Source: Verrucomicrobiota bacterium
GTDB taxonomy: Bacteria; Verrucomicrobiota; Kiritimatiellia; SS1-B-03-39; UBA6053
Length of the DNA: 64,000 nt
Direction: 5' to 3'
NCBI GenBank assembly: GCA_020831625.1
Contig: JAFIGD010000007.1
Location: 1 to 64,000, forward strand
Below, piece after piece: positions 930 to 47,928 of the stretch. Every line of letters begins with the position of its first letter. The stretch's first letter is position 1. A program made the position numbers and the translations under genes. A model generated the notes under the pieces. That model saw nothing but the letters and a program-made list of their open reading frames with translations. It was not told where the DNA came from and ran no database searches.

Positions 930-983
930 TTCAACTAGTAAAATCGTTTTCTGCTTGCCGGGGGGCTGGCGCTGGCGTAGGCA
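930..983 (+). promoter_or_regulatory. Class-2 operator-promoter upstream of the chimeric pseudogene
   Basis: TTCAAC-TA-GTAAAA (930-943) is a variant of the 14-bp site also found at 1623, 40637 and 47834. Ten bases later comes CTTGCC (954-959), then an 18-bp spacer and TAGGCA (978-983). The geometry is identical to the other sites. It now drives only the truncated GH94/LacI remnant, so it is probably a relic. Confidence 0.5.
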
Positions 984-1509: not shown

Positions 1510-1622
1510 TGATTACGAATAGGAGCGGGAGTCTCTTTCCCCAAAGCTTGCCACGCGGAACGCTTGGTTCGACTCCGTCTTTCAACGCGGGGCTTTCGTC
1601 CCGACTTTCCCCCCGCTCTTCA

Positions 1623-1676
1623 TTTAACAAGTAAAATCAATTGCGACTTGCCACCCGGTCCGACCTGGGTTATCCT
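1623..1676 (+). promoter_or_regulatory. Class-2 operator-promoter of the 1684 operon
   Basis: TTTAAC-AA-GTAAAA (1623-1636) is a 14-bp imperfect inverted repeat. Ten bases later is CTTGCC (1647-1652), then an 18-bp spacer and TATCCT (1671-1676). The ATG of the beta-helix gene is only 7 bases beyond the -10 box, so the transcript may be leaderless, which fits the lack of a Shine-Dalgarno sequence. Confidence 0.6.
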
Positions 1677-1683
1677 TATTTTT

Positions 1684-4600
1684 ATGATGAATCCGACTAA
1701 ATCCCTCCTTCTGACGCTTTCCGCCCTGCTGACCGTTTGCATTCCTCTTTCCGCCGACACCCCGCCGACGGGTTGGGATGTCGCGGCCATTCCCGCCTGG
1801 CCCTCGCCTGTCCATCCCGATGCCGTGGTGACCGAGGGAACGACCGATATTCGGTGGATGCCCCGACCCTATACCTACACGGCGGTTTCGTCGGTGCGCT
1901 ACATCGACTTCGAAAACGGCGACGACCACAACGACGGCGCCACCAAAGAAACGCCCTGGAAGCACCATCCCTGGGATGCCAACGCCGCCGGACAGGCCGC
2001 CGAAGCCCGCGGCGTGCACACCTATGTGTTCAAGGGCGGGGTCACTTACCGCGGCACCCTGCTCGGCGACGAGTCCGGAACCCCGGAGGAACCCATCCGC
2101 CTGACCCGCGATCCGGACTGGGGCGAAGGAAAAGCCATCCTCGCGGGATCCGAAGGCATTGACCAGGGCTGGCGACTCGTCGATGCCGACGCGGCCCGGG
2201 AGGCCGGACTTTCCGAGGAGGCAGCAGGCAATGTCTGGGGGGTGGAGCTCGGAACGGACTTCGAACCCTGGGCCCTTTGGATCGAGGATCGTCACGGGGA
2301 ACGCGAGAGAAAAACCTTGGCCCGCTGGCCGAACTGGGAGCGCGAACATCGGTACAATCACTTTACCCAGTGGCACCGCGTGGAAGACGCGGACACCGAC
2401 GGCTTTCCCCGCGCGCGGATTCAAGCCGACGTGCTCAAGGGCCATGATCCCGACGCCTTTCGCGGGGCCACCATCTGGGTCGACCACTCCAACCGGGGTT
2501 CCGGCTTCACCATCATGGGACCGACACCCTCCAGTGCCGGCGGCTATGATCCGGAAACCGGAACGCTCCGGCCGGAACTCAACCAGCCCCGCCGCCGGCC
2601 GGAGGTCAACAGTCCCTTTTTCCTGGAAAACAAGGCCTGGTTCCTCGATGAGCCCGGAGAGTGGTACTTCGACAAAGACAGCGGCATGCTTTACCTCTGG
2701 ATGACCGACGGACGCGATCCCAACCAGACCGCGGTTGAAGTGGCCCGACACCGGATTACCCTCGACCTGCACGGGGCCCGTCACATTGAAATTTCCGGTC
2801 TCACCTTTATGGGCGGCAACACCATCGATCCCAAAAAGGCGGTGGATGTCGGCGGTTACAATGCCCCGGAACCCTTTGCCGTGATGCCGGCCATTCGCTT
2901 GTTGGGGGACTGTCGGTCCATTCATATCCGTCATATCGAAATTTCCCATACCGCCGGCGGCGGCATCGCCAATTTGGTGACCCATGCCGACGATGTCGTC
3001 AGCGACATTCACATCACCGACAGCCGTTTCACCCATCTGGACAACGACGGCATTTCGCTTTTCCGCGGCTTTTCCTGGCGGCGGACGGAGGCGCAGCCCA
3101 AGGCCCGCCTGACCGACCTCCACATCTATCGCAATTACATGTACGACATCGGCCTCCGCGGCACCTCGCCTCCCTCCGCCGGCAAAGCCATCGACATCAC
3201 CGGACCCGAAGTCGCCGACATCGCCGGCAACGTAATCCGGTATGTCGCCGCCCACGGCATCAATATCAACGGAGGCCGCCCCCTCGACGGATGGATGGGA
3301 ACCGACGCGCCCGCCACCCCCCTCATCCGGATCCAAGTCCGGCAAAACCGCGTGGAGGAGGCCCTGCTGTACAAGACCGACTTCGGAAACATTGAATTCT
3401 GGCAGACCGGTCCCGCCTACATCTACAACAACATCTCCGTTAACCCCATCGGCTACATCCCCCACCGTGACATTTATCATAAAAACGAAGCCTTCTATTT
3501 CGACCACGGGATCAAAGGGTACCTCTTTAACAACATCGGATGGTCCGACAAACTTGAAGACGCGAGCCGGGGGATCATTGGCGACACCTTTTATAAGGAC
3601 GTTCGGACCCACTGGAACATGATGTTCCAGAACACCAGCTACAACTTCCGCACCCACTACGCCCACGAAGGCGCGGCCGGAAACCAACAACAGATCCTTG
3701 GAAATCTGATGATCAGCTCCGCCCCCATTAACGGCTTCATCAGTTACTGGCGGCTTCAGGAAGCCGAGGAAATCGCCATTTCCCGGAATCTCGCCGCCGG
3801 CAGCTATGAAAACTTCTACAACCGTTGGCGCGGGGACACCTTCCGGACGGTGGACGACTTCCGCGAAGCGGTCGCCGACAGCGACAACTTCCTCGCCAAC
3901 CACATCGGCTGGGTGACGGATGACATGCCCGTCCACGATCCCGACGGCCGCGACTTCCGTCCCACCGACGACTCCGCCGCCATTGACCGCGGGGTGAAAG
4001 TTTTTGTTCCCTGGTCCCTCTACGGAACCGTCGGCGAATGGTATTTCCGACTACACCCTCGCAACCCGAATGACGTGCTTTCCTACGATTTGTATCCCCA
4101 GGAGTTCCTTGCGGCCTTCGGCATCATGCAACTCGGAGGGGCGATGCCGGACAACCGGCTCAGCGGCGGGGGCTTTACAGCGGCGGATTATGTTCCCGGC
4201 GTGTTGGAAGACTGGATCGAACAGGGCGCACTGCGATTTGACGGCGTCAAGACGCTCTCGATCCCGAATGAACGACTGGTGCGTGATTTTGAGTTTGAAC
4301 GCCGCAACGACACCATCGAGGTCGCAGGGCGCGACCGGCGCACCGTCCGCATGGGGGAAAACAGTTTTTCGATCGAGGCCGTCCTCCTGTGGGAAGGTGA
4401 GGGGGCGGGGGTGCTCGCCGCCAAAACGGACGGGAAAACCGGGTACGCCTTCGGCCTGACCGGGGACGGCCGGCCCCGGATCCGGCTTCAGGGGGACGGG
4501 CAAACCGCGGATGTCGTCGGGGCGGACGCCTTGTCCGCCCACACCTGGCACCACCTTCTCGCCGAAGTGGACCGCCCCAACGGCACCGTCACCCTGTATC

Positions 4601-5313
4601 TCAACGGCAGCCCCATGGCCGGCGAAGCCTCCGGTCCCATGTTGCCCCCCGGCGTTTCCCTCGACAACGAAGCCGATTTCATCGTCGGCTCCGATTTTGT
4701 CGGCGCCTTGGACTTCATGCGCGTTTCCCGCGGCACCCTGACCGATGCCAAGACCACCATCGGGGAACTGATGAGCTGGCAGTTCAAGGGACCGCATCTG
4801 CACGACTTCACGGGCCGCGCCCCCGTGGGCGAACGACGCGATGTCGGCGCCCTCGAGCATCCCGAAGCAAGCGGACCCCGTCCCATCCGCTACACCCCTC
4901 CCGAAGGACCGGTGGAGGCCGTCGTCGAGGAAGAGGAGGATGCGTTCCTCGACGGAGATGACCGCAATATCCAGCAAACCGATTGGGCCACGATTTCCGC
5001 GCCCAAAGCGGTTGCCCGGGGGGAAAGAGCCCTGGTCCAGGTGGCTTTCCCCACTGAAACCATTCCCAACCGCATGACCCTGCAAATGGACCTGCACGGG
5101 TTCATCGACGGAGAACGCAGGCCCGGACTCGGCCAGCCCCAACCGACCCCCGTCGAACCCGGGGTCACCATCCCCTACGGTGTCTCGGTCGGCATCCCCG
5201 ATCGGGAGGGCCTCAGCCGCGTCAGCGTGGTCATCTACGTGTCCCCGGACGGAACCTACAGCAACCGACTTCACCACACCGAAATCGGCATAGACGTGAT
5301 CGCGCCGGAGTGA
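1684..5313 (+). CDS. Secreted right-handed beta-helix protein with LamG domain (polysaccharide-active, lyase/GH141-like)
   Basis: The 1209-residue protein starts with a clear signal peptide (MMNPTKSLLLTLSALL, then an Ala-Asp cleavage region). Residues about 50-640 form a right-handed parallel beta-helix with an early FKGGVTYRG motif, a GFTFMGGNT-like rung and many Asn-ladder repeats. Residues about 890-1035 are a LamG/concanavalin-like jelly roll (WHHLLAEVDRPNGTVTLYLN), probably carbohydrate-binding, and the last ~130 residues form a further beta-sandwich-like segment. Beta-helix proteins of this type are polysaccharide lyases or GH141/GH28-like hydrolases; the exact activity cannot be read from sequence. 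It is a paralogue of 47929-52098, which has an additional domain. It is first in an operon with 5368 and 7239 and is preceded by a class-2 operator-promoter. The start was chosen at the first ATG after the -10 box; a second ATG follows immediately. Confidence 0.75.
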   Translation: MMNPTKSLLLTLSALLTVCIPLSADTPPTGWDVAAIPAWPSPVHPDAVVTEGTTDIRWMPRPYTYTAVSSVRYIDFENGDDHNDGATKETPWKHHPWDANAAGQAAEARGVHTYVFKGGVTYRGTLLGDESGTPEEPIRLTRDPDWGEGKAILAGSEGIDQGWRLVDADAAREAGLSEEAAGNVWGVELGTDFEPWALWIEDRHGERERKTLARWPNWEREHRYNHFTQWHRVEDADTDGFPRARIQADVLKGHDPDAFRGATIWVDHSNRGSGFTIMGPTPSSAGGYDPETGTLRPELNQPRRRPEVNSPFFLENKAWFLDEPGEWYFDKDSGMLYLWMTDGRDPNQTAVEVARHRITLDLHGARHIEISGLTFMGGNTIDPKKAVDVGGYNAPEPFAVMPAIRLLGDCRSIHIRHIEISHTAGGGIANLVTHADDVVSDIHITDSRFTHLDNDGISLFRGFSWRRTEAQPKARLTDLHIYRNYMYDIGLRGTSPPSAGKAIDITGPEVADIAGNVIRYVAAHGININGGRPLDGWMGTDAPATPLIRIQVRQNRVEEALLYKTDFGNIEFWQTGPAYIYNNISVNPIGYIPHRDIYHKNEAFYFDHGIKGYLFNNIGWSDKLEDASRGIIGDTFYKDVRTHWNMMFQNTSYNFRTHYAHEGAAGNQQQILGNLMISSAPINGFISYWRLQEAEEIAISRNLAAGSYENFYNRWRGDTFRTVDDFREAVADSDNFLANHIGWVTDDMPVHDPDGRDFRPTDDSAAIDRGVKVFVPWSLYGTVGEWYFRLHPRNPNDVLSYDLYPQEFLAAFGIMQLGGAMPDNRLSGGGFTAADYVPGVLEDWIEQGALRFDGVKTLSIPNERLVRDFEFERRNDTIEVAGRDRRTVRMGENSFSIEAVLLWEGEGAGVLAAKTDGKTGYAFGLTGDGRPRIRLQGDGQTADVVGADALSAHTWHHLLAEVDRPNGTVTLYLNGSPMAGEASGPMLPPGVSLDNEADFIVGSDFVGALDFMRVSRGTLTDAKTTIGELMSWQFKGPHLHDFTGRAPVGERRDVGALEHPEASGPRPIRYTPPEGPVEAVVEEEEDAFLDGDDRNIQQTDWATISAPKAVARGERALVQVAFPTETIPNRMTLQMDLHGFIDGERRPGLGQPQPTPVEPGVTIPYGVSVGIPDREGLSRVSVVIYVSPDGTYSNRLHHTEIGIDVIAPE

Positions 5314-7218: not shown

Positions 7219-7238
7219 TCCCGCGCCAGTCCCTCTTC

Positions 7239-9635
7239 ATGAACCTATATACCTTCGACGATTCCAAACCCGCCATTGAGATTCATCGCCCGGACACCCC
7301 GAATCCGTGGATCAACTATCTTTCCAATGGCCGGTTTCATGCCTTTGTGTCCCAGGCGGGGGGCGGGTTCGCCTGGTTCGGGTCGGCGGTGACCCGGCGG
7401 CTCACGCGCTATCGTCAATACAATCTCCCCATCGATTCGCCGGGGTTTTACATCTATCTGCGCGAAAAAGACGGCAGCGTGTGGTGTCCCGCCTTTCGTC
7501 CCTGTGAAACACCGCTCGACGCCTGGTCGGCCTTTCATCTTCCGGGCGCCACCCGCTTCCGCGCCCGCAGGGACGGGGTGACCGCGGATCTGGAGGTCTT
7601 CGTGGCTCCGGACCACAATGCGCTGATCTGGGATTTGCACCTCCACAACGGGCGGGGCGGGGAGGTCGAACTGGATGTCTTCGCCTACACCGAGGCCTCC
7701 CAAAACAACTGGCGGGACGAGGCGAGTTGGGGGTACTACACCCGCCACCATCTCGAAGCCCGCTGGCTGCCGGACAGCGAGGCCCTGATCCACTTTATGC
7801 GGCTCCCCGACGCGCCCATTCTTTATTTCGCGGGCTCGCATGCGAACGCGGGACACGACTGCGACCGGCAGGTCTTTATGGGGAACTACCGTTCGGAACG
7901 CAATCCGGTCGCGGTGGAGGAGGGAGCCTGCCGAAATTCGTCCCTTCCCTGCGGCGAAGGCTGTTTGGCCCTGCAACACAAGGTCCGGCTAGCGGACGGT
8001 GCTTCCGAGAGGCTTCACTTTTATCTGGGCGTGACGCGCACCGCCTCGGAACCCTACGCGGAATCGATTCGGGACATGGCGAACACCTTGACGTCCCTGC
8101 GCAAAGAGGGCGGGGTCGCCGAACAGCGGGCCAAAACCGCCGCGTGGTGGACGAAACACCTCGATGTGTTCCGCTGCGCCATTCCCGATGTCGACGCGGA
8201 GCGCCAGATCAATATCTGGAGTCCGGTCAACTCCGTGCACACCGGACGCTACTCGCGTTCGGTCAACACCTGGGCCCCCGGCATTCGCGGGGTCGGCTTT
8301 CGCGACACCTGTCAGGACATGCTGGCCATCGCCTACCGGGACCCGGACTGGGCCGTCAAAACGCTTCGTTTTCTCATGGGACAGCAATACGAGGACGGAC
8401 ACGTGGTTCATTATTGCTATCCGGAGGAGGGGGATCCGCCCACCACCTCGATTCACAGCGACGACCATTTGTGGCCGCCGCTGGTGGCCTACGCCATCGC
8501 CGCCGAAACGGGCGATCTCGCTTTTCTCCGGGAGAAAGTCCCGTTTTTGGGCGAGGATCATGTGTATTCCGCCGGTGGCGCCAGCCTCTGGGAACATCTG
8601 CTGCGGGGCATCCGCTTCACCGAAAATCATCTCGGACGGCACAAGTTGCCGCTAACCTTGAAAAGCGACTGGAACGACATCATTGGACGCTTCAACCGAC
8701 GCGGGGAAGGTCAATCCGTTTTCGCAGGACAGCAGTACGTCTACGCCCTGAATCGTCTCATTCCGCTGGCCAATGCGCTGGGGGACCACAAAAACGCCGA
8801 GTGGCTGACCGACTGCCGCGACCGCATGGCGGCGGCGCTGTTGGCCCATGCCTGGGACGGAAACTGGTGGCGGCGGGGTTTCGATGACGACGGGGCTCCC
8901 GTCGGTTCCCAAAGCAGCGATTTTGGAAACGTGTTCCTGAATCCGCAAAGCTGGGCGGTGCTGGCCGGCATCGGGAGTCGGGAGCAGCAGGAACGCGGCA
9001 TGCAAAGCGCCTTCGAAGAACTGGACACGCCCCTGGGGCTGAAAATCCTTGCGCCCGGATTCAAGACCTGGCCCGAGGTGGACGATCCTTTCTCTCCGTA
9101 CTGCCCGGGCACCGGCGAAAACGGGGCGATTTTTTGTCACGCCAACACCTGGGCCATCATGGCAGAGGCGCGTCTGGGCAACGCGGAGCGCGCCTGGAAG
9201 TATTTTCGTCAACTGATTCCCGCCGTGGCTCAGCGCACCGCCGGCGCGGAACGGTACCGCGCCGAACCTTACGCCTGGGTCAGCAACATTGTCGGACCCG
9301 AAAACGAAAAATCCGGCTGGGCGAATGTCGAGCAGGTGACCGGCACTGCCGCCTGGATGGATGTCGCCGCCACCCAAAGCCTCATCGGCCTGCAGCCGGA
9401 GTTGGACGGCCTGCGCATCGATCCCTGCATTCCGCCCGACTGGAACGGCTTCACCGCCCACCGCGTCTTCCGGGGCTGCCGGGTCATGATCACGGTGGAG
9501 AATCCGAACGGCGTTTCCCGCGGGGTGACCGCGATGGAGGTCAATGGCGAGGCGATAGATCTTAGGCACGGTCCGGTGCTCACCTCCGATCGGTTCAAGC
9601 AATCCGCCACGCTGGATGTGCGGGTGATTTTGTGA
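7239..9635 (+). CDS. GH94 family glycoside phosphorylase-like enzyme
   Basis: The 798-residue protein has no signal peptide and should act in the cytoplasm. GH94 enzymes split beta-linked disaccharides such as cellobiose or chitobiose by phosphorolysis. The N-terminal half is the family's super-sandwich domain (NPWINYLSNGRFHAFVSQ, then GFAWFGSAVTRR). The catalytic (alpha/alpha)6 barrel has GVGFRDTCQDM at about residue 350 and the catalytic-acid region LKSDWNDIIG at about 474-483. Length matches the family (about 800). The substrate is unknown; the DWND motif lacks the usual following Gly, so specificity may differ from classic cellobiose phosphorylase. It is the third gene of the operon starting at 1684. 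A truncated copy of its first 208 bases lies at 1039-1246. No Shine-Dalgarno sequence is seen at the ATG. Confidence 0.8.
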   Translation: MNLYTFDDSKPAIEIHRPDTPNPWINYLSNGRFHAFVSQAGGGFAWFGSAVTRRLTRYRQYNLPIDSPGFYIYLREKDGSVWCPAFRPCETPLDAWSAFHLPGATRFRARRDGVTADLEVFVAPDHNALIWDLHLHNGRGGEVELDVFAYTEASQNNWRDEASWGYYTRHHLEARWLPDSEALIHFMRLPDAPILYFAGSHANAGHDCDRQVFMGNYRSERNPVAVEEGACRNSSLPCGEGCLALQHKVRLADGASERLHFYLGVTRTASEPYAESIRDMANTLTSLRKEGGVAEQRAKTAAWWTKHLDVFRCAIPDVDAERQINIWSPVNSVHTGRYSRSVNTWAPGIRGVGFRDTCQDMLAIAYRDPDWAVKTLRFLMGQQYEDGHVVHYCYPEEGDPPTTSIHSDDHLWPPLVAYAIAAETGDLAFLREKVPFLGEDHVYSAGGASLWEHLLRGIRFTENHLGRHKLPLTLKSDWNDIIGRFNRRGEGQSVFAGQQYVYALNRLIPLANALGDHKNAEWLTDCRDRMAAALLAHAWDGNWWRRGFDDDGAPVGSQSSDFGNVFLNPQSWAVLAGIGSREQQERGMQSAFEELDTPLGLKILAPGFKTWPEVDDPFSPYCPGTGENGAIFCHANTWAIMAEARLGNAERAWKYFRQLIPAVAQRTAGAERYRAEPYAWVSNIVGPENEKSGWANVEQVTGTAAWMDVAATQSLIGLQPELDGLRIDPCIPPDWNGFTAHRVFRGCRVMITVENPNGVSRGVTAMEVNGEAIDLRHGPVLTSDRFKQSATLDVRVIL

Positions 9636-12320: not shown

Positions 12321-13388
12321 TCAAGAGATTTCTCTTCTTGTCATGAGGGTTCCGCGAATCGTGATTCTGCGGGGGGTGTCAGGCTCCCCGGTCAGGTTCC
12401 GCTCGATTTGGGAGATGAGAAAGTCCACTGCGGACCGGTAGATCTCATCCCATTCCTCCTCGATCCAGAAACTGGTTTCCTTTTCAATGTTGCCCGTGGG
12501 AGAAGCAACTCTGATATCCTCCGGAATGCGCAGGTTCATTCTGCCCAGCCATTCGATGGAAGGCTGGGGAGTGGCGATCAGCACGTCCATCGGGTGGCGG
12601 GTCATCCAGGCCCGGAAGTCGGCCTCGTCGTAGTCCTCGGGGAGGTGAATCGGGATGCGTTTTTCAGGGGGAATATCCTGCTGCGCCCGCCAGAAGGCGG
12701 CGCTGATTCGGCCGTTGGTCCGGCGGTCGATCAATCCGGGCAGGTATAGGCCAACCCGCAAACCGGGAGTTTCCAGCAGATGCTTGCTTAAGAGGTGGGC
12801 GTTATCAAACTGGGCGGGGCTCACACGGTGCAGGTCCGGGGTTTCCAGGGTGTTGCCGATGGTCACCACCGAAAAACCGGAAAAATCCAAATCCAACCGG
12901 GTCTCCGGTTTTCGCTGCGGCGGCAGCAGAATGCCCCGGATGCCGCGGGAGGCCATGATTTTGAAGATCCGTTCCGGGGTAAGGTCGGGGTCCGCCAAAT
13001 TGAACGTTTCAAAGCGATACCCTTTGTGCGAAGCCCATTCGTTCGCGGTATTGAAGTCGGCCCGGCGTGTTTTTTTGTAGGTGTCGGATTCTTTGGGAAT
13101 ATTGATCAGCCAGGCCAGGGTGCCGTGAAAACTGTCCGTGTGTTCGCGCATGCGGTAGCGGGCCAGCGCCTGCAGCATGGGATCCGGCTCGTAGCCCATT
13201 TTAGCTGCGATTTTCCTTACGCGCTCGCGGGTTTTCGCGGCGATCTGCGGATCGCCGCGAAGGGATCTTGAGACCGTGGTGTAGTGCACCCCCGCAACCC
13301 GCGCCACGTCCTGAAGCGTCTTCCTGGGCTCGTTGCCATGGCCCGATTTCGTGGGTTGTTTCGTTCGCATTTGGAATGTGAATCCCAT
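12321..13388 (-). CDS. LacI-family transcriptional regulator
   Basis: The protein has 355 residues from the chosen ATG at 13388 (an alternative ATG at 13370 leaves a slightly shorter tail). The N-terminal helix-turn-helix is clear: TLQDVARVAGVHYTTVSRSL, followed by the hinge region AKMGYEPDP. The rest is a periplasmic-binding-protein-like effector domain ending in SAVDFLISQIERN. LacI regulators bind inverted-repeat operators and respond to a sugar or sugar derivative. It is divergent from the beta-helix gene at 13577, and the intergenic region contains the perfect class-1 site CGCACA-TG-TGTGCG at 13458-13471. This makes it the best candidate to bind that site family across the window (inference). 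An unusual basic extension (about 25 residues, Lys/Arg/His-rich) precedes the helix-turn-helix. Confidence 0.88.
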   Translation of the reverse strand: MGFTFQMRTKQPTKSGHGNEPRKTLQDVARVAGVHYTTVSRSLRGDPQIAAKTRERVRKIAAKMGYEPDPMLQALARYRMREHTDSFHGTLAWLINIPKESDTYKKTRRADFNTANEWASHKGYRFETFNLADPDLTPERIFKIMASRGIRGILLPPQRKPETRLDLDFSGFSVVTIGNTLETPDLHRVSPAQFDNAHLLSKHLLETPGLRVGLYLPGLIDRRTNGRISAAFWRAQQDIPPEKRIPIHLPEDYDEADFRAWMTRHPMDVLIATPQPSIEWLGRMNLRIPEDIRVASPTGNIEKETSFWIEEEWDEIYRSAVDFLISQIERNLTGEPDTPRRITIRGTLMTRREIS

Positions 13389-13457: not shown

Positions 13458-13511
13458 CGCACATGTGTGCGGTTTGTTTACCTTGCCGCAGGTTGGAACT
13501 GTCCGTAGTAT
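13458..13511 (+). promoter_or_regulatory. Class-1 operator-promoter of the 13577 gene, shared with the LacI gene
   Basis: Perfect arms CGCACA-TG-TGTGCG (13458-13471), 10 bases, CTTGCC (13482-13487), 18 bases, TAGTAT (13506-13511). The site lies between the divergent LacI-type regulator and the beta-helix gene, the usual arrangement for a regulator and its own operator. Confidence 0.65.
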
Positions 13512-15324: not shown

Positions 15325-15378
15325 CGCATATGTGTGCGGAAATTTTCTCTTGTCCGATTCAAGCCTTCTGCGTATAGT
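15325..15378 (+). promoter_or_regulatory. Class-1 operator-promoter of the second PEP-CTERM gene
   Basis: CGCATA-TG-TGTGCG (15325-15338) has one arm mismatch. It is followed after 10 bases by CTTGTC (15349-15354), 18 bases and TATAGT (15373-15378). A half-site CGCACA lies just after the -10 box, near 15384. Confidence 0.65.
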
Positions 15379-15472
15379 AAATTCGCACATCAGACGGGTT
15401 CCGACGATTCCCGCCGAACACAGTCAAACAACTCCAGGCAAACACAACCCCCAACTGAGAAGAGGAAAACCA

Positions 15473-16351
15473 ATGAAGACCAACTCCACACCCCAAACGA
15501 AGAGAGAATACCCTGTGAAAACCATATCAGCACATTTGAAGACGAGCCTACTGTCCGCATTTCTCTTTGCGGGCGTGGCGGGGCAGGCAACGGCAATGCT
15601 CCTTGCGTACGAGGGCTTTGATTATACGGCGGGAAGCCAATTGAGCGGTCAAAATGGCGGCACCGGTTGGGATGGTTCGTGGGGAGTGAGCAACTCCGCC
15701 CGCGCAATTGTTCTGGACGGGGGATTATCATACCTCAACCTAGTGGTTTCCGGTAATTCCGTCGGCAATCCTGACACGACGAGTTCCTTCAGTGTAACCC
15801 GTCTCTTTGATAGTGCGCCTGATTCCGGCACGGTGTATTTCAGTTTTCTCGTACATGGCGACGAAACGGTCACCGGACGATATGGTGCTCTCTTGCGTCC
15901 GGCGGCCGGGGGGACGAGTCCGGTGGCCATGGGGCAGTCGACAAGCCAGTCTCTAGACGGAACAAGTCCCTTTAGTATGCGCGAAAATCAGACAAACCAA
16001 GGCGGGATCAATGGGGCGAATCCGGGAGGAACGAGCATCGTTGGAACGAACTTTTTGGTGGTGGAGTTGAATCTTGACACCAATCAGGCAAGTTACTGGG
16101 CGAATCCCACCAGCCTCGGCGGAGCCGCACCGACTGCCACAGTGTCCGGTGTCTCGTTTACTTCGCCGCCGGCCTTCCTCGAGCAGTTCTACTTCGGCAC
16201 CCAGGATTCCGGATCCGCCAAGGTCATTTACGACGAATTCCGGATCGGCACCACCTACGCCTCGGTGTCACCGATTCCCGAGCCCTCCACCTTGTTGCTG
16301 GTGTTCGGGGCTTTCACGTTTCTTGTCATGATGGGTCGGCGCCGCAAGTAA
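15473..16351 (+). CDS. PEP-CTERM sorting domain protein
   Basis: The protein has 292 residues from ATG 15473, which is preceded by a good AGAAGAGG ribosome-binding sequence. An N-terminal signal peptide (SLLSAFLFAGVAGQATA) leads into a mature domain beginning YEGFDYTAGSQLSGQNGG, which is common at the start of LamG-like PEP-CTERM proteins; the rest is beta-rich. The C-terminus has IPEPSTLLLVF, a hydrophobic segment and a GRRRK tail, the exosortase-dependent surface signal. It stands as its own transcription unit, with a class-1 operator-promoter upstream and a strong terminator downstream. The shared operator suggests that it is made together with the beta-helix enzymes and may help bind or hold the polysaccharide at the cell surface (inference). 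Confidence 0.88.
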   Translation: MKTNSTPQTKREYPVKTISAHLKTSLLSAFLFAGVAGQATAMLLAYEGFDYTAGSQLSGQNGGTGWDGSWGVSNSARAIVLDGGLSYLNLVVSGNSVGNPDTTSSFSVTRLFDSAPDSGTVYFSFLVHGDETVTGRYGALLRPAAGGTSPVAMGQSTSQSLDGTSPFSMRENQTNQGGINGANPGGTSIVGTNFLVVELNLDTNQASYWANPTSLGGAAPTATVSGVSFTSPPAFLEQFYFGTQDSGSAKVIYDEFRIGTTYASVSPIPEPSTLLLVFGAFTFLVMMGRRRK

Positions 16352-22035: not shown

Positions 22036-22098
22036 TACGTATCGGATGCCCGGATGTAAACAAGCGAGAAAAATCTTCCGTTTCCGCACATGTGTGCG
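22036..22098 (-). promoter_or_regulatory. Possible minus-strand promoter of GH2 using the shared class-1 operator
   Basis: Read on the minus strand, the class-1 site (22098-22085) is followed after 20 bases by CTTGTT (22064-22059), a 17-bp spacer and TACGTA (22041-22036), only 7 bases before the ATG. The 20-base distance is one helical turn more than at the other sites. The -10 box is weak. Confidence 0.3.
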
Positions 22099-22138
22099 TT
22101 TTGTTTCTCTTTCAAAGAACTCCTCTCCGGTGTATGAT
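22085..22138 (+). promoter_or_regulatory. Class-1 operator-promoter of the pseudopilin gene
   Basis: Perfect arms CGCACA-TG-TGTGCG (22085-22098), 10 bases, CTTTCA (22109-22114), 18 bases, TATGAT (22133-22138). The site sits between the divergent GH2 and pseudopilin genes. Confidence 0.6.
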
Positions 22139-30084: not shown

Positions 30085-30147
30085 AGGATATGCTCCACTT
30101 GCCTTGACGCAATTGATATTGCAACCGGGGTGTCGCACACCTGTGCG
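30085..30147 (-). promoter_or_regulatory. Class-1 operator with possible promoter of Verru_Chthon A copy 1
   Basis: Perfect arms CGCACA-GG-TGTGCG read on the minus strand (30147-30134). Twenty bases later is ATTGCG (30113-30108), a 17-bp spacer and TATCCT (30090-30085). The distance is 20 bases where other sites have 10, so the promoter part is less certain than the operator. Confidence 0.45.
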
Positions 30148-34885: not shown

Positions 34886-37735
34886 TTATTCCACGGCCTT
34901 GAAGATCCGAATGAACTGGATCTGCAGGCGGTTCGAACCCGGTGCCGGTTCGAGGACCAGGCGGTTCTCCGTGTCTTCACCCACCTTAACCACGGCGTGA
35001 TGCACATCGTAACGGTCCATGTGCCCGTCGCGGTCTTTCAACAACTTGCCGTTGACCAGGATGTGATTCACGGCGAAGAAAGTCGTCCTTTCCTGGAAGG
35101 CGTCCAAACCGCCCCAGTTTGGATACCTCGGATTGCCCAGGGCAATCTCCACTTCGTACGTTCCGGCCGGAAGCTCAATTGACCAGGCATGGTCGGGACC
35201 GGGATCAAAGCGATTGTTGGTGTCATAGAGAAAGGTGCCGGGGTCGCGTCCCGCGCGGTGGAGGCGGTCCTGGGCGGCGGGTGTGTTCCACCCATAGCGG
35301 TGGCCGCCGTTCCGGTCGCCGAAGACCTCTCCGGTCTCGGGCATCCAGTCCTCCGGATTCTCCCTGAGGTCGCGGGCCCTCAGGAAATTGACCTGTGCGA
35401 CCAATTCACCGAGGTTCCGAAACTGATCCGGTTCGCCCCCGTAGTCCGGATCCGGGTTGTACACGGGGGTGTCCACCGGCGTCATGCCCTCGGGATGGGC
35501 TCTCTGGGCCTCGAAAATCGAGGGGAACGGCGGCACCGGCCGGGGGGCGCCGTTGTCCGGCGGCAGGATCCGGTTGCCATGGCTGCGGCGCAGCGGGGTT
35601 TGCGCGTAATCCGATTCGGCCCAGCCGTCACTGAGTCGGTTGTTCGAACCGTGAATGGTGTTTGCGATTATTTCAATCCCGTGATTGTGGACGGCCAACT
35701 CCGCGTTGGCGCGGTGCGCTGCGGGCGTGTCGGATCCCCGGCCCTGTGCGCCATGGCGGAGAACCGGCGAGAACAGATCCTCCATAATGACGGTGTTGCC
35801 GATGATCAGGTGGTCGGTCTGGCGGTCCCGCATTGAAAACGCCGGACCCCGTTCGACGTGTATGCGGTTGTAGGCGAAGATCCAGCCCTGCTGGTAGCCC
35901 CCCAAATGCATCCCGCCCGTCGGACCGTAAATATCGGAGTTCCAAATCACGTTGCGCGGGCCGGGAGGCGAGTGCATCTCATTGCCCGTGTCCGGCGTGT
36001 GCAGTGCCCGTCCATAGGATCCCCCGAAGGTGTTGTCGCCCACGGCAACATTTTCCACGAGGTGCTCGACCCCGTAGCCGTTGTGCCATTGCAGGTCGCT
36101 GCCCGAGAAATTCGAATTGCGCACCACGTTCCCGGCTCCCCCGTGGAAATCGGGCGCGTGACGCTGTCCGACGCCGACCACATTCTCCATCAGACTGTCG
36201 AAAGAACCCGCGAAACCGATATAGGCCGTTCCCCCGGACTTCGGCCAGTGCGCGCCGATGAATTCACAGTCGCGGATCTCGCCGTTTTTCACGCCCGTCA
36301 TAAATCCGGCGTATTGGCCCACGTCGATCACGCGCACGTCCCGCATCCAGAAATTCCGGGCATGGGTGGTCATCACCGCGCTGTACCAGTCCTTCCGGTT
36401 GGGAAACTGAATCACCAGATCCTCAAGGCCGACGGAATCAATGGGGAATTGGGGCTGGGTATAACTGACACCTTCCTCATCCCCCTCTATCACCGGGAAG
36501 GTTATCCGCAACGGCTGGTCGATTTCCACGCGATGACCGTCAATGGCCACGATGGACACCAATTGCTCCCGGGGGTGCCCCCCGCGCGTCCGCTTTTTTA
36601 AATAATCGGTGTTTCTCGCTTGAACATTCAACATGTCGCCGGCTTGCAGGCCGCCGTGTTCATCGAGGGTGAGATCGTTTTCAAAAACGAGCACGGTGTC
36701 CCCCCGGTGCGCGGTCTCCGCCAATAGTTGGCGGTTGTTCCGTTGAGACCACTGATCACCGATAAACATGAAGGCGGCCCGCAATTGGGCGTGTCCGCCC
36801 AGTCGCCGGTTGGGGCGGCGCAGCCCCGGCACGGGTTCCCGATCCCAGTCGATATTCTTGACCTCAAAGATGTCTCCCTCGATGATGTCGCCGTCCTGGT
36901 ATTCAATCCAGGGCTGTAACCAGGCGGTCTCTTGATCCCGAAACGCCTCCCCGAAATTCCGGGCGTCCCACTGTCGGAAATAGGCCTGCTGGGTCACGCC
37001 ATCCCAGAACTGGGCGCGGTCGCGAATGATGTCTCCGTCCGCATCCAGGGCCCGCAGGCCGTACTGGCGGATGGTCCGGTTGGGCTGAACCGGATCGTCC
37101 GGATTATTGAAGCGATACCGGGCGTCACCGAAGACCATAATGACACTGTCTTGAGTCAATTTTCCGTCGAACCGGTGGATCGCCAGCCAGGGTTTGCTGT
37201 CCTCCGGACGGTCAAACGCGAACATCAGCCGGGTAACGCCGGTTCCGGGTCCCGCCTGTCCTTTTCCCATTCCCCGGATGACGACCCCGTCATACACAAC
37301 AGTGACCGGTGCGGAAATGGTGAAGGTGCCCTGCGGCAGGAGGACCACCCCGCCCGGCAAGCCCTCTTCCAGCACCCTCCGGCCGGCGGCGTCGACCGCA
37401 GCCTGCAGTTCTTCAGTGATGTCTCTTGCGCCGGGGAACCACCGGACCATCTCCACCACCGGCCAGTCATCCGAGGGGATGCCCCCGACCACCCCGGCCC
37501 GGTCCCAGCGGGGATAAACAATGCCGTCGGGCCCCACCCAGTCCGCAGCCGTCAGTTGCCCTGTGTTGCGGAAATCTTTTCGGGAAACATCGGGATAGGT
37601 GGCTGACTCGTCCGCTTGAAGGACGGAGTACGTTTGGAGTATTGCCGGTAAAAATATCGTAAGAGCAAATCGTTGAATGAAGTGAGAGGACAGTAAACGG
37701 AAAGAGAAATTATTTGAAAAACAGGATTGGCTCAT
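34886..37735 (-). CDS. Large secreted beta-helix protein, pectate-lyase superfamily, with C-terminal malectin-like domain
   Basis: The 949-residue protein has an N-terminal signal peptide (RFALTIFLPAILQTYSVLQA). The mature part has the shared opening VGPDGIVYPRWDRAGVVGGIP seen in the 13577 and 16445 products, a VLLPQGTFTIS strand, a long beta-helix (GLEDLVIQFPN, NVVRNSNFSGSDLQWHNGYG) and a linker containing PPFPSIFEAQRAH, a variant of the PSLLEWQR end of its paralogues. The last ~160 residues (FRNLGELVAQVNF to LQIQFIRIFKA) resemble malectin/CBM-like modules with YEVEIALGNPR. It probably cleaves or binds the same polysaccharide outside the cell; catalytic residues are not assigned. It is first in the operon with the two GH31 genes and has the class-1 operator-promoter at the standard spacing. 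Confidence 0.78.
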   Translation of the reverse strand: MSQSCFSNNFSFRLLSSHFIQRFALTIFLPAILQTYSVLQADESATYPDVSRKDFRNTGQLTAADWVGPDGIVYPRWDRAGVVGGIPSDDWPVVEMVRWFPGARDITEELQAAVDAAGRRVLEEGLPGGVVLLPQGTFTISAPVTVVYDGVVIRGMGKGQAGPGTGVTRLMFAFDRPEDSKPWLAIHRFDGKLTQDSVIMVFGDARYRFNNPDDPVQPNRTIRQYGLRALDADGDIIRDRAQFWDGVTQQAYFRQWDARNFGEAFRDQETAWLQPWIEYQDGDIIEGDIFEVKNIDWDREPVPGLRRPNRRLGGHAQLRAAFMFIGDQWSQRNNRQLLAETAHRGDTVLVFENDLTLDEHGGLQAGDMLNVQARNTDYLKKRTRGGHPREQLVSIVAIDGHRVEIDQPLRITFPVIEGDEEGVSYTQPQFPIDSVGLEDLVIQFPNRKDWYSAVMTTHARNFWMRDVRVIDVGQYAGFMTGVKNGEIRDCEFIGAHWPKSGGTAYIGFAGSFDSLMENVVGVGQRHAPDFHGGAGNVVRNSNFSGSDLQWHNGYGVEHLVENVAVGDNTFGGSYGRALHTPDTGNEMHSPPGPRNVIWNSDIYGPTGGMHLGGYQQGWIFAYNRIHVERGPAFSMRDRQTDHLIIGNTVIMEDLFSPVLRHGAQGRGSDTPAAHRANAELAVHNHGIEIIANTIHGSNNRLSDGWAESDYAQTPLRRSHGNRILPPDNGAPRPVPPFPSIFEAQRAHPEGMTPVDTPVYNPDPDYGGEPDQFRNLGELVAQVNFLRARDLRENPEDWMPETGEVFGDRNGGHRYGWNTPAAQDRLHRAGRDPGTFLYDTNNRFDPGPDHAWSIELPAGTYEVEIALGNPRYPNWGGLDAFQERTTFFAVNHILVNGKLLKDRDGHMDRYDVHHAVVKVGEDTENRLVLEPAPGSNRLQIQFIRIFKAVE

Positions 37736-37778: not shown

Positions 37779-37832
37779 ACTATGTATCGAAAACATGGAT
37801 GCAACAAGACAGATCTTCCGCACACATATGCG
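37779..37832 (-). promoter_or_regulatory. Class-1 operator-promoter of the beta-helix/GH31 operon
   Basis: On the minus strand: CGCATA-TG-TGTGCG (37832-37819), 10 bases, CTTGTT (37808-37803), 18 bases, CATAGT (37784-37779). The operator is identical to the one at 15325, and its distance to the -35 box is the same. Confidence 0.62.
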
Positions 37833-37934
37833 AAAAATGAAAAGGACATTACGCACAAAAAAAACCGGCAGTTGGACTGAAAACCCAATAAAAAAACGGA
37901 GGGTGAAGCAAGAGATGGGCAACCCTAAAAATGT

Positions 37935-38304
37935 CTCCGGTGGTGCGTTTTCCGGGCGGCACGGATGTCGACAAGATGAACTGGACCGACATGATCGACA
38001 ACGCTCCCGACCGGGAGAGTCCGGAGCGGCCGGTATCCATCGGCGGACACGGGGACGTGGTCACCAACCGATTCGGGTTTGATGAATTTTCCGGCTGCGG
38101 GACACGCTTGACTTTGAAATCATTCTGGTGGGAAATTTACGGCAGGCGCTTTACAAAGAGCGCACCTTTCAAGATGCGGCCCGGCACCGTGCCCGTGCGG
38201 AATCCCTGGAACGGCTCTATGACGTCCAAAACCGCGATCACACTGCCGCCCCCCATTCTCTCTCCATTGTTGAAATCACCAGGCCTGATGCGGCAAAACC
38301 CTGA
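37935..38304 (+). pseudogene. GH51 pseudogene (duplicate of 40702, truncated, frameshifted and internally deleted)
   Basis: Bases 37935-38181 match the 5' part of the GH51 gene (RFPGGTDVDKMNWTDMIDN) beginning about 90 codons in, so the signal peptide and start are missing. A T run has four Ts where the intact gene has five (TTTTCCGGCTG versus TTTTTCCGGCTG), shifting the frame. At about 38182 the homology jumps to the last ~120 bases of the gene and ends in the original stop TGA (38302-38304). The central part with both catalytic Glu residues is absent. The 5' part is clearly closer to the intact copy than the 3' part. Confidence 0.8.
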
Positions 38305-38338
38305 ACGAGTTTCATCGGGAAGATTGGCCTGTGGAAAC

Positions 38339-40546
38339 TCAGAATGGGACAACACGTTCCAGAATTTCACCTGAGGGAATCTCGATATCCGAAGTATGTC
38401 GGTCGGAATCGGTTTCGATCAGGATGCGGACCCGGGCAGGGAAGGGGGTGGGGTTGTGAATTCGCAGGGCGCGGCGGGCGTCTTCCATCCAGTCGGCCTC
38501 GACCGCGTCCAGACACCAGATGTCACCGGTGTCGGGCCGGGCGTACACGCCCGGAAGTTCGGCGCAGGTGAGCGCCAGCGAGACTTCGCTCCAGCAGGAG
38601 TAATAAAACACTTCGCCGATCCTCTCGTCGCCTCCCCACTGGGTGACGTTCACGCGCTCGCACATCCAGCCCGGTTTGAGATGCCGGATGTCCGGTGATT
38701 CGGGCGGGTTGTAGGGGATTTTCCAGGGAATGGGGCGATCCTCCCGCGACATGTACTGGGGAAGGGCGCGGGCAATGTCGCGGAGCAGGTCCAGATGAAA
38801 CGGATTGTGCGAGAGCCGGTACAGGCGGAGGAGGGAAAGGCCCGAATGGGTGCAGATGCCGGGGGCGCTGTGTTTGTTCTGCACATTGGCGAGCACCGTG
38901 CCGGCACTGAGCATGTCCATCTGCCCGAAGGCGCTGTCGGGCGGGAAAGCGGCGTCGTAGCTGAAGACCCAACTGGCGGCCTGCGCGGCGCAACGTGCGG
39001 CGGCGTCCACCCAGCGGGCTTCCCCGGTTTCTTCGGCGAGAGTGACCAGGCTTTCGAGTAGACCCGCGACCGATTCACTGTCGGGACACTGTGCGATTTC
39101 GCCGGGTCCGCCGTTGGTGAGCCCCTTGCGCAAATAGTCGCGGTCATAGTGCTCCGCGGCGGCAACGGCCACGCGCAAGCAGTCGTCCGCGCGGTCGGGA
39201 TACGCGCGGGCGGCGAGCACCAGACCGGCCGGAGCGATGCCGGCGCTCAACGAACCGGACACCAGCAGTTCGCCGGTGTTGTGATCCACGAACTGGCCGA
39301 ACTGACCACAGGTGCCCCACAAACGCACGAAGGCGTCCGCGCATTTTTGAAAGCCGTCCCTCCAGGAGGGTTTGATCTCTTTTTCGGGCATGGCCGCGAG
39401 GGTGGAGAGACCGTAGAACAGCACATCCGCACTTTTGCGGAGAAGATGCCAGGGGGCGGTATCATCGCGGTAATGATCGCCGAACGGGCGGCCTTCATGG
39501 ATTACCCCGTAATAGAATCCCGAAGGCGCCTGGCCGTGTGTGAATAGAAAATCGAAATTGCGCCGCACCCGCTCTTTGGAGCGTTCGTCACCCCGCAGGT
39601 ACAGGGAGTGGGTGTGGATCATGCCGCCCACCCAGCCCGTCTGCCAGTCCTGATGCATGGAGCGGCTGCGCATGGGTTCGACCCCCACCGAGTAGTAGCC
39701 CCCGTCCTCCACCCAGTTCTCGCGGTTGAATTTCTCCTCCAGGATCTCCCAGGCCGCGGACAACGGAAAATCGCAGCGCCGGCGGGGCGGGGGCACCATG
39801 GTGTTGCGGAGCGGGATCAGGGTCTCGTACAAATCCTGTATCGAGTCGCAGGGCTGATCGACACAGAGCATGGAAATTTCGATCCGTTCGCCCGCGCGCA
39901 GATCCGCCGGCTGATCCGGGGAGGGGCCCTGGTCATTGGTCATGGTATAGGCCGCCTCGCGGACGCAGGGGGAGCTGATCCGCAGCCGGGCTTCACTCCG
40001 GTCCCCGTTTTCTTCGAGGGTGTAGCCGAAACATCCGAGGGTGTTCCGCTCCGGGGTGAGGATCCACACGCAGCGTTTTTGATCCGGGAACCAAAAGCCG
40101 ATGCCGGGCACGGCGGGGTCGATGGAGGGAATTTCGAAGCGGGAGGGACCGGGTTCGGCGGACAGTCGCGGCACACGGCTGATGCGCGGACGTTGATCGG
40201 GATCGTCGGCTGTGCGCAGGGGAGGCAGCGGAGGATACCTGTCCGGGATGACGGGAAAGCGGTTGCCGTTGACGATGGCGCCGGGCGATAACACATACAC
40301 GTCCTCCGACCAGTCCGGAAAATGAAGATCCAGGCTCAGGGACACCTGGCGGGCTTCGCCCTCCGTCACTTCCGCCTCCAGACGGTACTGCCGTTGATGG
40401 ATCGCCGGAGAGGTTTCCTCCAAACGGAAGCGCCAAAGGGCCTCCGACTGCTTCAAATCACCCTCCGGCAAGGGGAGGAGCTGCGAATGAATTCGGAGGG
40501 TCCGGCGGTGGGAATGCAGATGTGCGGAAAGATGTTTTGTTTGCAT
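38339..40546 (-). CDS. Protein of unknown function, probable alpha/alpha toroid glycan enzyme
   Basis: The protein has 735 residues from ATG 40546 (further in-frame ATGs at 40600 and 40693 are possible). There is no signal peptide. Residues 1 to about 250 are beta-rich; about 280-640 contain many amphipathic helices with conserved aromatic residues (MHQDWQTGWVGGMIHTH, GFYYGVIHEGRPFGDHYRDD, WHLLRKSADVLFYGL), as in (alpha/alpha)6 barrels of GH88/GH105/GH127-like enzymes and polysaccharide lyases. The final ~100 residues return to beta structure. I cannot assign a family. It is divergent from the GH51 operon and probably acts on the same glycan. It ends 34 bases from the GH51 remnant. Confidence 0.55.
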   Translation of the reverse strand: MQTKHLSAHLHSHRRTLRIHSQLLPLPEGDLKQSEALWRFRLEETSPAIHQRQYRLEAEVTEGEARQVSLSLDLHFPDWSEDVYVLSPGAIVNGNRFPVIPDRYPPLPPLRTADDPDQRPRISRVPRLSAEPGPSRFEIPSIDPAVPGIGFWFPDQKRCVWILTPERNTLGCFGYTLEENGDRSEARLRISSPCVREAAYTMTNDQGPSPDQPADLRAGERIEISMLCVDQPCDSIQDLYETLIPLRNTMVPPPRRRCDFPLSAAWEILEEKFNRENWVEDGGYYSVGVEPMRSRSMHQDWQTGWVGGMIHTHSLYLRGDERSKERVRRNFDFLFTHGQAPSGFYYGVIHEGRPFGDHYRDDTAPWHLLRKSADVLFYGLSTLAAMPEKEIKPSWRDGFQKCADAFVRLWGTCGQFGQFVDHNTGELLVSGSLSAGIAPAGLVLAARAYPDRADDCLRVAVAAAEHYDRDYLRKGLTNGGPGEIAQCPDSESVAGLLESLVTLAEETGEARWVDAAARCAAQAASWVFSYDAAFPPDSAFGQMDMLSAGTVLANVQNKHSAPGICTHSGLSLLRLYRLSHNPFHLDLLRDIARALPQYMSREDRPIPWKIPYNPPESPDIRHLKPGWMCERVNVTQWGGDERIGEVFYYSCWSEVSLALTCAELPGVYARPDTGDIWCLDAVEADWMEDARRALRIHNPTPFPARVRILIETDSDRHTSDIEIPSGEILERVVPF

Positions 40547-40636: not shown

Positions 40637-40689
40637 GTTAACAAGTAAAATTATTAAAGGCTTGCCCTGGGCATATCTCTTGGTATCTT
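40637..40689 (+). promoter_or_regulatory. Class-2 operator-promoter of the GH51 operon
   Basis: GTTAAC-AA-GTAAAA (40637-40650), 10 bases, CTTGCC (40661-40666), 17 bases, TATCTT (40684-40689). The GH51 ATG follows 12 bases later, so the transcript has a very short or no leader. No Shine-Dalgarno sequence is seen. Confidence 0.62.
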
Positions 40690-40701
40690 TCATTTCACCG
40701 T

Positions 40702-42450
40702 ATGAAGGTATTACCTCTAATATTTGTGCTCACCTCCGCCATGACCGCCATTTCCAGTGCCAAAGACCTCCATCCGCTTTCTTCGGAAACCGGCCCCGTG
40801 CTTCGTATTGGCGACAGGGTGACCGGGAAGATCGACGAACGCATTTTCGGGCAGTTTTTGGAGCGCCCGTCCTGGGGCGGCGAAACTGGCCCAGAGGCTG
40901 TTGTCGATGACGGGGGCAACCTGCCGCAGGAGGTGATGGAGATGCTGGCCGGGCTTCGTCCGCCGGTGATCCGTTTTCCAGGGGGCACGGATGTCGACAA
41001 AATGAACTGGACGGATATGATCGACAACGCCCCCGACCGGGAGAGTCCGGAGCGGCCGGTTTCCATCGGCGGACACGGGGGCGAGGTCACAAACCTCTTT
41101 GGATACGATGAATTTTTCCGGCTGCGGGACACGCTTGATTTTGAAATCATTCTGGTGGGAAATCTGCGGCAGGCGCTATACAAAGAGCGAACCCTTCAAG
41201 ATGCGGCTCTGCACGAGGCTGGTCTGCTGGCATACGCCCGGGCGGAAGCGGGCGCGGGTCTTCCGGAGGGTATGTCGGACTGGGGGGCAATTCGCGCGCG
41301 GAACGGCCGCGCCGAACCGGTTCCGGTCCGCTACTTCATGGTTGGCAACGAGAGCTTTTTTTTCTGGCCGCCGCAAAAACCGGAACAATTCGACGAACTC
41401 GGTCTGGCGGATGTGGACGCGGCCTGGGACTGGTTCCGGGAATGTCTGATCGCCTATGGCCGTGCCCTCAAGGCGGTTGATCCCGAGGTGATCCTGATTC
41501 TCGACGGCTTCCACGACCCCTTCAATCCCAGGAATGACGTACCCAATGCCGCCCGGCGGGAACTTTACCTCGATCCTGAGATCCGTGCCCTGTACACTTT
41601 GCTCGGCGCCCATCACTACGCCCCCATGGGTTTCCACGGTTCGCGACTCAAGGGGGAGGGCATTCCCCCCGCCGACATGACCGATGTGCAAATCTGGTAC
41701 GGACTCCTTGCGGCTCCCGGACTTTTTGATGAAAAAGGTCAAAACATCGCTGTTGGCGACACCTACGATGAAATGTTGGAGGCGGGGTATCGCATTTCTT
41801 TCACGGAATGGAATTTCAATGCCTGGAATGAATCCCGGGTACTGGAGGAGCGTCCCTTCCGGATCGAAGTCCCCGCCCGGCTCGCGACCGCAGGTTTTCT
41901 GCACGGCATCCTGCGGCACGGCGATGATGTGGCTTTGGCAACGCAGTCCATGCTGCTTGGAACGAGCTGGAACATCACCGCAATCCGCGCCGACACCAAA
42001 GGCGAGCAGCCGCCGTATTGGCTGCCCCAGGGGCAGGTCGCCCGTTTTTACCGTCACCTTACCGGATCTAAACTGGTGGAAAGCACCCTCGAAAATCCGC
42101 CTCTTTTCGAACATCCGGCCCAACTCACCCCCTGGTGGCCTGCGGCGGAAGCCATCGGGCTGCTGGACGTGGTGGTGACCCGTGGTGAAGGGACACTTTA
42201 TATCCATGTCATCAACCGGAGTCTGGATCAGAGTTTCCCACTAGAGGTAGACCTTCCCTCCGAATTTCAAAACGGCCGGGCGACGCAACACCTGCTTCAA
42301 ACCGATCCGGATCTGCCCTTTGAACGGGACAGTACCGTACCCGTGCAGAGACCTTGGAGCGGTGACTTTGTTCCGGGCACTTCGATTAGGCTTCCGCCCC
42401 ATTCCCTGTGCATTCTTGAAATCACCAAGCCCGGCGAAGCGAAGCAATAA
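40702..42450 (+). CDS. GH51 alpha-L-arabinofuranosidase-like, secreted
   Basis: The 582 residues start with a signal peptide (MKVLPLIFVLTSAMTAISSA), so the enzyme acts outside the cytoplasm. GH51 enzymes release alpha-L-arabinofuranose from arabinoxylan, arabinan and related side chains by retention. Landmarks are GKIDERIFGQFLE, PPVIRFPGGTDVDKMNW, the acid/base region YFMVGNESFFFW (Glu about residue 217), the nucleophile region ISFTEWNFNAWNE (Glu about residue 369), and a C-terminal beta-sandwich with HVINRSLDQSFPLEVDL. It is first in an operon with GH141-like, GH3 and GH39 genes, with a 1-base gap to the next gene. A damaged duplicate lies at 37935-38304. Confidence 0.88.
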   Translation: MKVLPLIFVLTSAMTAISSAKDLHPLSSETGPVLRIGDRVTGKIDERIFGQFLERPSWGGETGPEAVVDDGGNLPQEVMEMLAGLRPPVIRFPGGTDVDKMNWTDMIDNAPDRESPERPVSIGGHGGEVTNLFGYDEFFRLRDTLDFEIILVGNLRQALYKERTLQDAALHEAGLLAYARAEAGAGLPEGMSDWGAIRARNGRAEPVPVRYFMVGNESFFFWPPQKPEQFDELGLADVDAAWDWFRECLIAYGRALKAVDPEVILILDGFHDPFNPRNDVPNAARRELYLDPEIRALYTLLGAHHYAPMGFHGSRLKGEGIPPADMTDVQIWYGLLAAPGLFDEKGQNIAVGDTYDEMLEAGYRISFTEWNFNAWNESRVLEERPFRIEVPARLATAGFLHGILRHGDDVALATQSMLLGTSWNITAIRADTKGEQPPYWLPQGQVARFYRHLTGSKLVESTLENPPLFEHPAQLTPWWPAAEAIGLLDVVVTRGEGTLYIHVINRSLDQSFPLEVDLPSEFQNGRATQHLLQTDPDLPFERDSTVPVQRPWSGDFVPGTSIRLPPHSLCILEITKPGEAKQ

Positions 42451-47833: not shown

Positions 47834-47887
47834 TTTAACAAGTAAAATACAATTCCGCTTTACGTGAAGTGAGGCGATGGGTAGGGT
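47834..47887 (+). promoter_or_regulatory. Class-2 operator-promoter of the 47929 gene
   Basis: TTTAAC-AA-GTAAAA (47834-47847), identical to the site at 1623, then 10 bases, CTTTAC (47858-47863), 18 bases and TAGGGT (47882-47887). The -10 box is poor but the geometry matches the other sites. Confidence 0.52.
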
Positions 47888-47928
47888 GTATAGATGAAGA
47901 GGACTTCAGAATATTGTTAAACACCCCT

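Follow-up and report, generated by a model that had tools for sequence, protein, structure and literature searches.

An operator layout at LacI-family loci of Kiritimatiellota and Verrucomicrobiota and its probable role in activation

LacI is the textbook repressor, and the arrangement found beside a LacI-family gene in the DNA analysed here (a stretch of 64,000 nucleotides from a Verrucomicrobiota bacterium, referred to as the window) raises the question of whether its regulator could act in the opposite sense. From position 13458 to 13511 a short operator-like site stands upstream of a candidate promoter. The original prediction held that two classes of such sites stand exactly 10 bp before a CTTG or CTTT box at seven places, and took this as the layout of an activator working at a promoter with a weak -35 box.

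Two operator classes and one offset in the window and its relatives

All seven places exist, four of them with class A sites (CGCAYATGTGTGCG) and three with class B sites (TTAACAAGTAAAA), two unrelated operator classes that share one geometry. The boxes read CTTGCC, CTTGTC, CTTTCA, CTTGTT, CTTGCC, CTTGCC and CTTTAC, each followed by TAnnnT or CATAGT; two of the seven promoters (those at 22085 and 47835) thus have TTT and not TTG. The predicted sites and promoters, together with the proposed class A regulator, are the following:

12321..13373, minus strand: LacI-family regulator gene, proposed class A regulator; recognition residues HYTT, hinge PDPMLQALARYR
13458..13471, plus strand: class A operator CGCACATGTGTGCG, between lacI and a beta-helix (pectate-lyase-like) gene; kept in the same-genus genome G001, where the flanks have diverged
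13483..13511, plus strand: promoter after the 13458 site; -35 TTGCCG (13483-13488), N17, -10 TAGTAT (13506-13511)
15325..15338, plus strand: class A operator CGCATATGTGTGCG, preceding the gene in ORF 15332-16351; conserved in G001
15350..15378, plus strand: promoter after the 15325 site; -35 TTGTCC, N17, -10 TATAGT
22085..22098, plus strand: class A operator CGCACATGTGTGCG, preceding the pilin-like gene 22239
22110..22138, plus strand: promoter after the 22085 site; -35 TTTCAA, N17, -10 TATGAT
37819..37832, minus strand: class A operator CGCATATGTGTGCG, preceding the large lyase-like gene 34886-37735
37779..37807, minus strand: promoter after the 37819 site; -35 TTGTTG, N17, -10 CATAGT
1624..1636, plus strand: class B operator TTAACAAGTAAAA, preceding a GH141-like gene (ORF 1564-5313)
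1648..1676, plus strand: promoter after the 1624 site; -35 TTGCCA, N17, -10 TATCCT
40638..40650, plus strand: class B operator TTAACAAGTAAAA, preceding gene 40702
40662..40689, plus strand: promoter after the 40638 site; -35 TTGCCC, N16, -10 TATCTT
47835..47847, plus strand: class B operator TTAACAAGTAAAA, preceding gene 47869-52098, which is sequence-similar to the GH141-like gene at 1564
47859..47887, plus strand: promoter after the 47835 site; -35 TTTACG, N17, -10 TAGGGT
931..943, plus strand: eighth, degenerate class B site TCAACTAGTAAAA; N10 and CTTGCC as at other sites, no good -10; precedes a GH94 remnant
30134..30147, minus strand: one-mismatch class A-like site with TTG at +28, a geometry that found no support (see below)

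The product of ORF 15332-16351 appears PEP-CTERM-like by eye, and a Pfam search with it returned no match.

The distance of 10 bp is present at all seven places but depends on which end of the site is chosen, and the invariant in both classes is the 18 bp that separate the operator centre from the first T of the -35 hexamer. Similarly, each box becomes an ordinary -35 hexamer when read from its second base (TTGCCG, TTGTCC and so on), so that the 17-18 bp described between box and -10 become spacers of 16-17 bp. With a 17-bp spacer, the 18-bp offset puts the operator centre at about -53.5. The cores of both classes are asymmetric (TG in class A, an A-rich half in class B) and keep one constant orientation relative to the promoter. 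The recurrence exceeds what chance would give, CTT[GT] being found at 0.6% of window positions. Searching five genomes with nothing but the site sequences gave 30 class A and B sites; 18 of these have TTG at +18, and at no other offset do more than 2 have it (P about 5e-24, the sites being partly non-independent).

The four exact class A sites of the 4.9-Mb genome all lie inside the window. Of its four exact class B sites the window has three; the fourth is on contig C19, amid a cluster of one-mismatch class B copies. On this contig the class B sites are followed by N10 and then by GTTGCC, GTTGCC, GTTGTT, GTTGTC and ATTGCC. In genome G001 five class A sites lie around an 84% identical orthologue of the window's LacI; three have N10-CTTGTT or CTTGTC and TATGAT or CATAAT, and the other two have CTCGAC and CGTGAC at the equivalent position. 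Alignment of two orthologous promoters of the window and G001 showed that the operator, the CTTG box and the -10 have been retained and that the rest has diverged. Class A sites are found in another genus too (genomes G007, G008 and G010), mostly with N10-CTTGCC or ATTGCC/ATTGCT, and there they flank a LacI that is just 25-28% identical to that of the window; the class A regulators of the two genera have different recognition residues (YT vs HP). No class B sites were found in 8 relative genomes, so class B has no phylogenetic footprint and takes its support from C19. A class A-like operator, CGCACCAGTGTGCG, with TTGCCG at the 18-bp offset, was also seen in Verrucomicrobia subdivision 3 (L286:1189), near a LacI with the recognition pair HT, and G001 has on another contig a second, partial class A LacI orthologue (C170:545-1162, 80% identical to the window's), perhaps through strain variation or assembly.

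It had also been proposed that two further sites, before the GH2 gene (22085, minus strand) and a Verru_Chthon A gene (30134, minus strand), lie 20 bp away, one helical turn further upstream. This part found no support, as the family-wide scan shows no peak at +28 (6 vs a mean of 5.6) and the GH2 gene of G001 has no class A site immediately before it.

The offset near LacI genes of the phylum

The same distance emerges from scans that are blind to site sequence, in which palindrome position was recorded relative to candidate promoters (TTGNNN N16-18 TANNNT) in stretches around LacI genes and in positional control stretches. Among family relatives, with classes A and B removed, palindromes with at least 4 of 6 pairs numbered 42 at offset 18 against 21.8 +/- 4.9 at other offsets, those with at least 5 pairs 10 against 3.45, and those with 6 pairs 4 against 0.33. 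An offset-18 peak was likewise present in named Verrucomicrobiota LacI loci (16 vs 5.6), and for 40 LacI regions belonging to other classes of the phylum a pre-specified replication yielded 13 vs 4.1, 7 vs 0.49 and 3 vs 0.06. When the LacI loci of Kiritimatiellota and Verrucomicrobiota were combined (975-987 candidate promoters), 33 palindromes with at least 5 of 6 pairs were found at offset 18, against 5.6 +/- 2.3 elsewhere and 12-13 at the next highest offset, and 12 perfect palindromes against 0.5. This combined scan revealed no palindrome excess over the -35, the spacer, the -10, the start or the early transcribed region. A search that started from the sites agreed: next to 247 LacI genes there are 64 perfect palindromes, and TTG stands at +18 in 16 of these, the other offsets having 1.7 +/- 1.4. 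Odd-centred palindromes peak at no offset. There was no offset-18 peak in the LacI loci of Actinomycetota, Bacillota and others (20 vs 18.4), nor in a 400-kb sample of G008 selected by position to avoid LacI genes (19 vs 21.3); beside the 33 palindromes of the combined scan, these two controls gave 1 each.

We consider these data strong evidence that the 18-bp layout is a general rule, at the level of genomes, for LacI regulators of Kiritimatiellota and Verrucomicrobiota. A recognisable site is lacking at offset 18 in most LacI loci, so other layouts may coexist with it. Chance, or the duplication of one ancestral promoter in front of several genes, is an extremely improbable source of the pattern: some window genes are indeed paralogues (repeats D1 and D3) that could share an ancestral promoter, but the copies show no relatedness in linker, spacer or flank, and about 20 or more different operators across many genomes have this offset. 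As a full explanation, this possibility is refuted by the unbiased scans.

The regulators and their operators

The protein encoded at 12321-13373 begins with a LacI-type helix-turn-helix (PF00356, 56.9 bits against a cut-off of 27). Its periplasmic-binding-protein-like sensor domain scores below the cut-off with Peripla_BP_3 alone (20 bits against 26.5), but is covered by the family profile, whose alignment with full-length CcpA, Cra, PurR and LacI-family structures extends to about their position 306-327. The canonical hinge helix (Ala-x-x-Leu type, A50) is absent from this protein. This is common in the phylum, since Ala is found at hinge position 50 in 4 of 247 LacIs compared with 31 of 39 in other phyla, whereas the hinge Leu (L53) is kept. 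As the hinge varies within the LacI family, the difference marks a subgroup rather than an exclusion from it. The LacIs of the loci of the phylum (L069-L093, L148-L156, L177-L256, L278-L317 and L357-L420) mostly have a P-x-P-x-[LV]-S hinge, and their operators have no central CG. The window operators are even palindromes with TG (class A) or AA/TA (class B) at the centre, and none of the 33 offset-18 palindromes is CG-centred. We infer that the absent central CG and the altered hinge belong together.

Several observations point to LacI as the protein that would occupy these sites. The sites stand at the start of lacI, serving the divergent gene, or directly after its stop codon, serving the next one, and a class B site is found directly 3' of the C19 LacI gene (71592-72632; residues MM). 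Half-sites follow the recognition residues, being TGTTCC for H[MI], CATTAC for KN, TTGTAT for PM and CGCAC for [HY][TP], and a related VM regulator elsewhere has the operator TTTTACAAGTAAAA. LacI pairs with common recognition residues share 5.1 of 6 half-site positions, compared with 2.5 after permutation (0 of 2000 permutations reached this; orthologous pairs contribute). Since the operator sequence tracks the recognition residues, the protein at the predicted sites is very probably LacI. It is quite improbable that another regulator encoded near the LacI genes, for instance an AraC-type or CRP-like activator, owns the sites, although cupin-type proteins, possibly AraC-like by eye, also occur in g3 loci and class A operators are identical in genera whose recognition residues differ. 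This explanation is opposed by the tracking of residues by half-sites and by the position of the sites relative to lacI; moreover, the class A site of subdivision 3 adjoins a LacI with the related HT pair, and no enrichment is seen away from LacI genes.

Activation, contact repression and known systems

One fixed distance and one helical phase across unrelated operators argue for contact with RNA polymerase, and distance and phase to the -35 are fixed at many promoters, as would be expected of a contact activator. The layout that had been predicted is upheld in part, as one geometry upstream of the -35 that extends across the phylum, with no palindrome excess at the usual repressor positions; its helical-turn variants found no support, and activation is its predicted effect. 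In the window's family the -35 departs from TTGACA, 17 of 22 promoters having TTGYY (23% in the background, P = 2e-7). TTGYY had to be rejected as a general mark of the -35, as only 3 of 13 promoters in other classes of the phylum have it. Upstream regions of G008 gave too weak a signal to establish a native -35 consensus, and non-consensus here means a departure from TTGACA. The 10-bp linker is A/T-rich in the middle (A at position 3, T at positions 6-8), a composition that resembles a site for the alpha C-terminal domain.

We propose that class A operators would be bound by the LacI of 12321-13373 and class B operators by the C19 LacI of 71592-72632, as a dimer centred 18 bp before the -35 with fixed position and helical phase. 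From there LacI would make contact with RNA polymerase, the likeliest partners being the alpha C-terminal domain lying in the A/T-rich linker, sigma region 4, or both. Recruitment of the enzyme to a promoter whose -35 is non-consensus would then activate polysaccharide-degradation genes. If these LacIs activate catabolic genes, the effector should promote their binding or activity, which would be the reverse of lac repressor allostery. Judged from sequence, LacI-type operators with a LacI dimer at -53.5 that activates through RNA polymerase offer the best explanation of the data, and a probable one; activation, binding and contact surface are predicted features of it. Activation is favoured by the fixed geometry, the A/T-rich linker, the TTGYY -35 in the window's family and the existence of activating members of the LacI family.

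The same position could in principle serve contact repression, in which LacI at -53.5 would lock RNA polymerase in an inactive complex until released by a sugar, like GalR at gal P1 from -60.5. GalR, itself of the LacI family, represses gal P1 by contact while bound upstream at a similar position and on the same helical face (PMC4693257), contact repression likewise needs fixed spacing, and LacI proteins are mostly repressors (PMC2329647). We nevertheless find this alternative unlikely, as an entire phylum would have to use the rarer mode throughout, promoters with the non-consensus -35 of the window's family would be weak with no need for such a brake, and palindromes are not in excess at classical repressor positions.

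Activation by upstream LacI-family dimers has precedents. Sites of the cre type upstream of the -35 activate (PMC3463425), and in L. lactis CcpA does so from -21 or -31, counted from the -35 sequence (PMC2329647), distances close to the 18 bp found here. As in our case, CcpA (Firmicutes ackA, pta and ilvB; L. lactis) is a LacI-family dimer that uses an even palindrome upstream of the -35 in a helix-face-dependent manner; however, it is a single global regulator that mostly represses from CG-centred cre sites, whereas here many local regulators and many non-CG operators share one offset. Cra/FruR of enterobacteria, another LacI-family protein, also activates gluconeogenic genes (PMC4052901), but it is a dual global regulator, and the comparison with it concerns activation. 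GalR at gal OE (-60.5) inhibits P1 by contact and activates P2 (PMC4693257); it is an upstream LacI-family dimer that contacts RNA polymerase directly, although it binds 7 bp further upstream, at one operon, and cooperates with a second operator and looping. The local sugar repressors of RegPrecise resemble those described here in adjoining their targets and in having even palindromes, but they are mostly CG-centred (1173 of 1251 even motifs, with 78 of 1251 lacking a clear CG), and the classical hinge Ala is missing in 243 of the 247 proteins studied here. The paper describing that survey makes no mention of Verrucomicrobia.

More tentatively, the whole phylum-wide LacI subfamily with a Pro-x-Pro hinge and non-CG operators may consist essentially of dedicated activators with one -53.5 contact geometry and inverted allostery, in which the sugar leads to binding or activation and not to release, a generalisation that we regard as possible but somewhat doubtful. 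The LacIs concerned are many, and they occur in polysaccharide-degrading and poorly understood Verrucomicrobiota and Kiritimatiellota. If they were activators with one geometry, regulon prediction would become simple, a palindrome 18 bp before TTG leading to the regulator beside it; the recognition residues would provide a reading rule for the operator, and dozens of natural LacI activators would be available for studying the switch between repression and activation in one fold.

Some minor features of the class B loci were also observed. At two class B genes (regions 1671-1690 and 40684-40704) the predicted start lies ~0-6 bases before the ATG (1684 and 40702), so that the mRNAs would be leaderless or nearly so; class A genes have longer leaders than these two. 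For the third class B promoter, transcription is predicted to begin at the ATG of an 8-codon mini-ORF (47894-47920; ATG AAG AGG ACT TCA GAA TAT TGT TAA), ahead of the point near 47931 where the gene itself probably starts. The segment 1023-1246, which follows the degenerate class B site at 931, is 92% identical to 7223-7446 and is the clipped remnant of a GH94 gene start. A partial copy of gene 40702 is found 3 kb upstream of it (37937-38187 vs 40963-41214, 88-92% identical), within ORF 37931-38374, which is apparently a gene remnant. Finally, two class B operators stand back to back on contig C19 at 53181-53207 (G000, locus L076) and serve two divergent promoters, one each, at the 18-bp offset.
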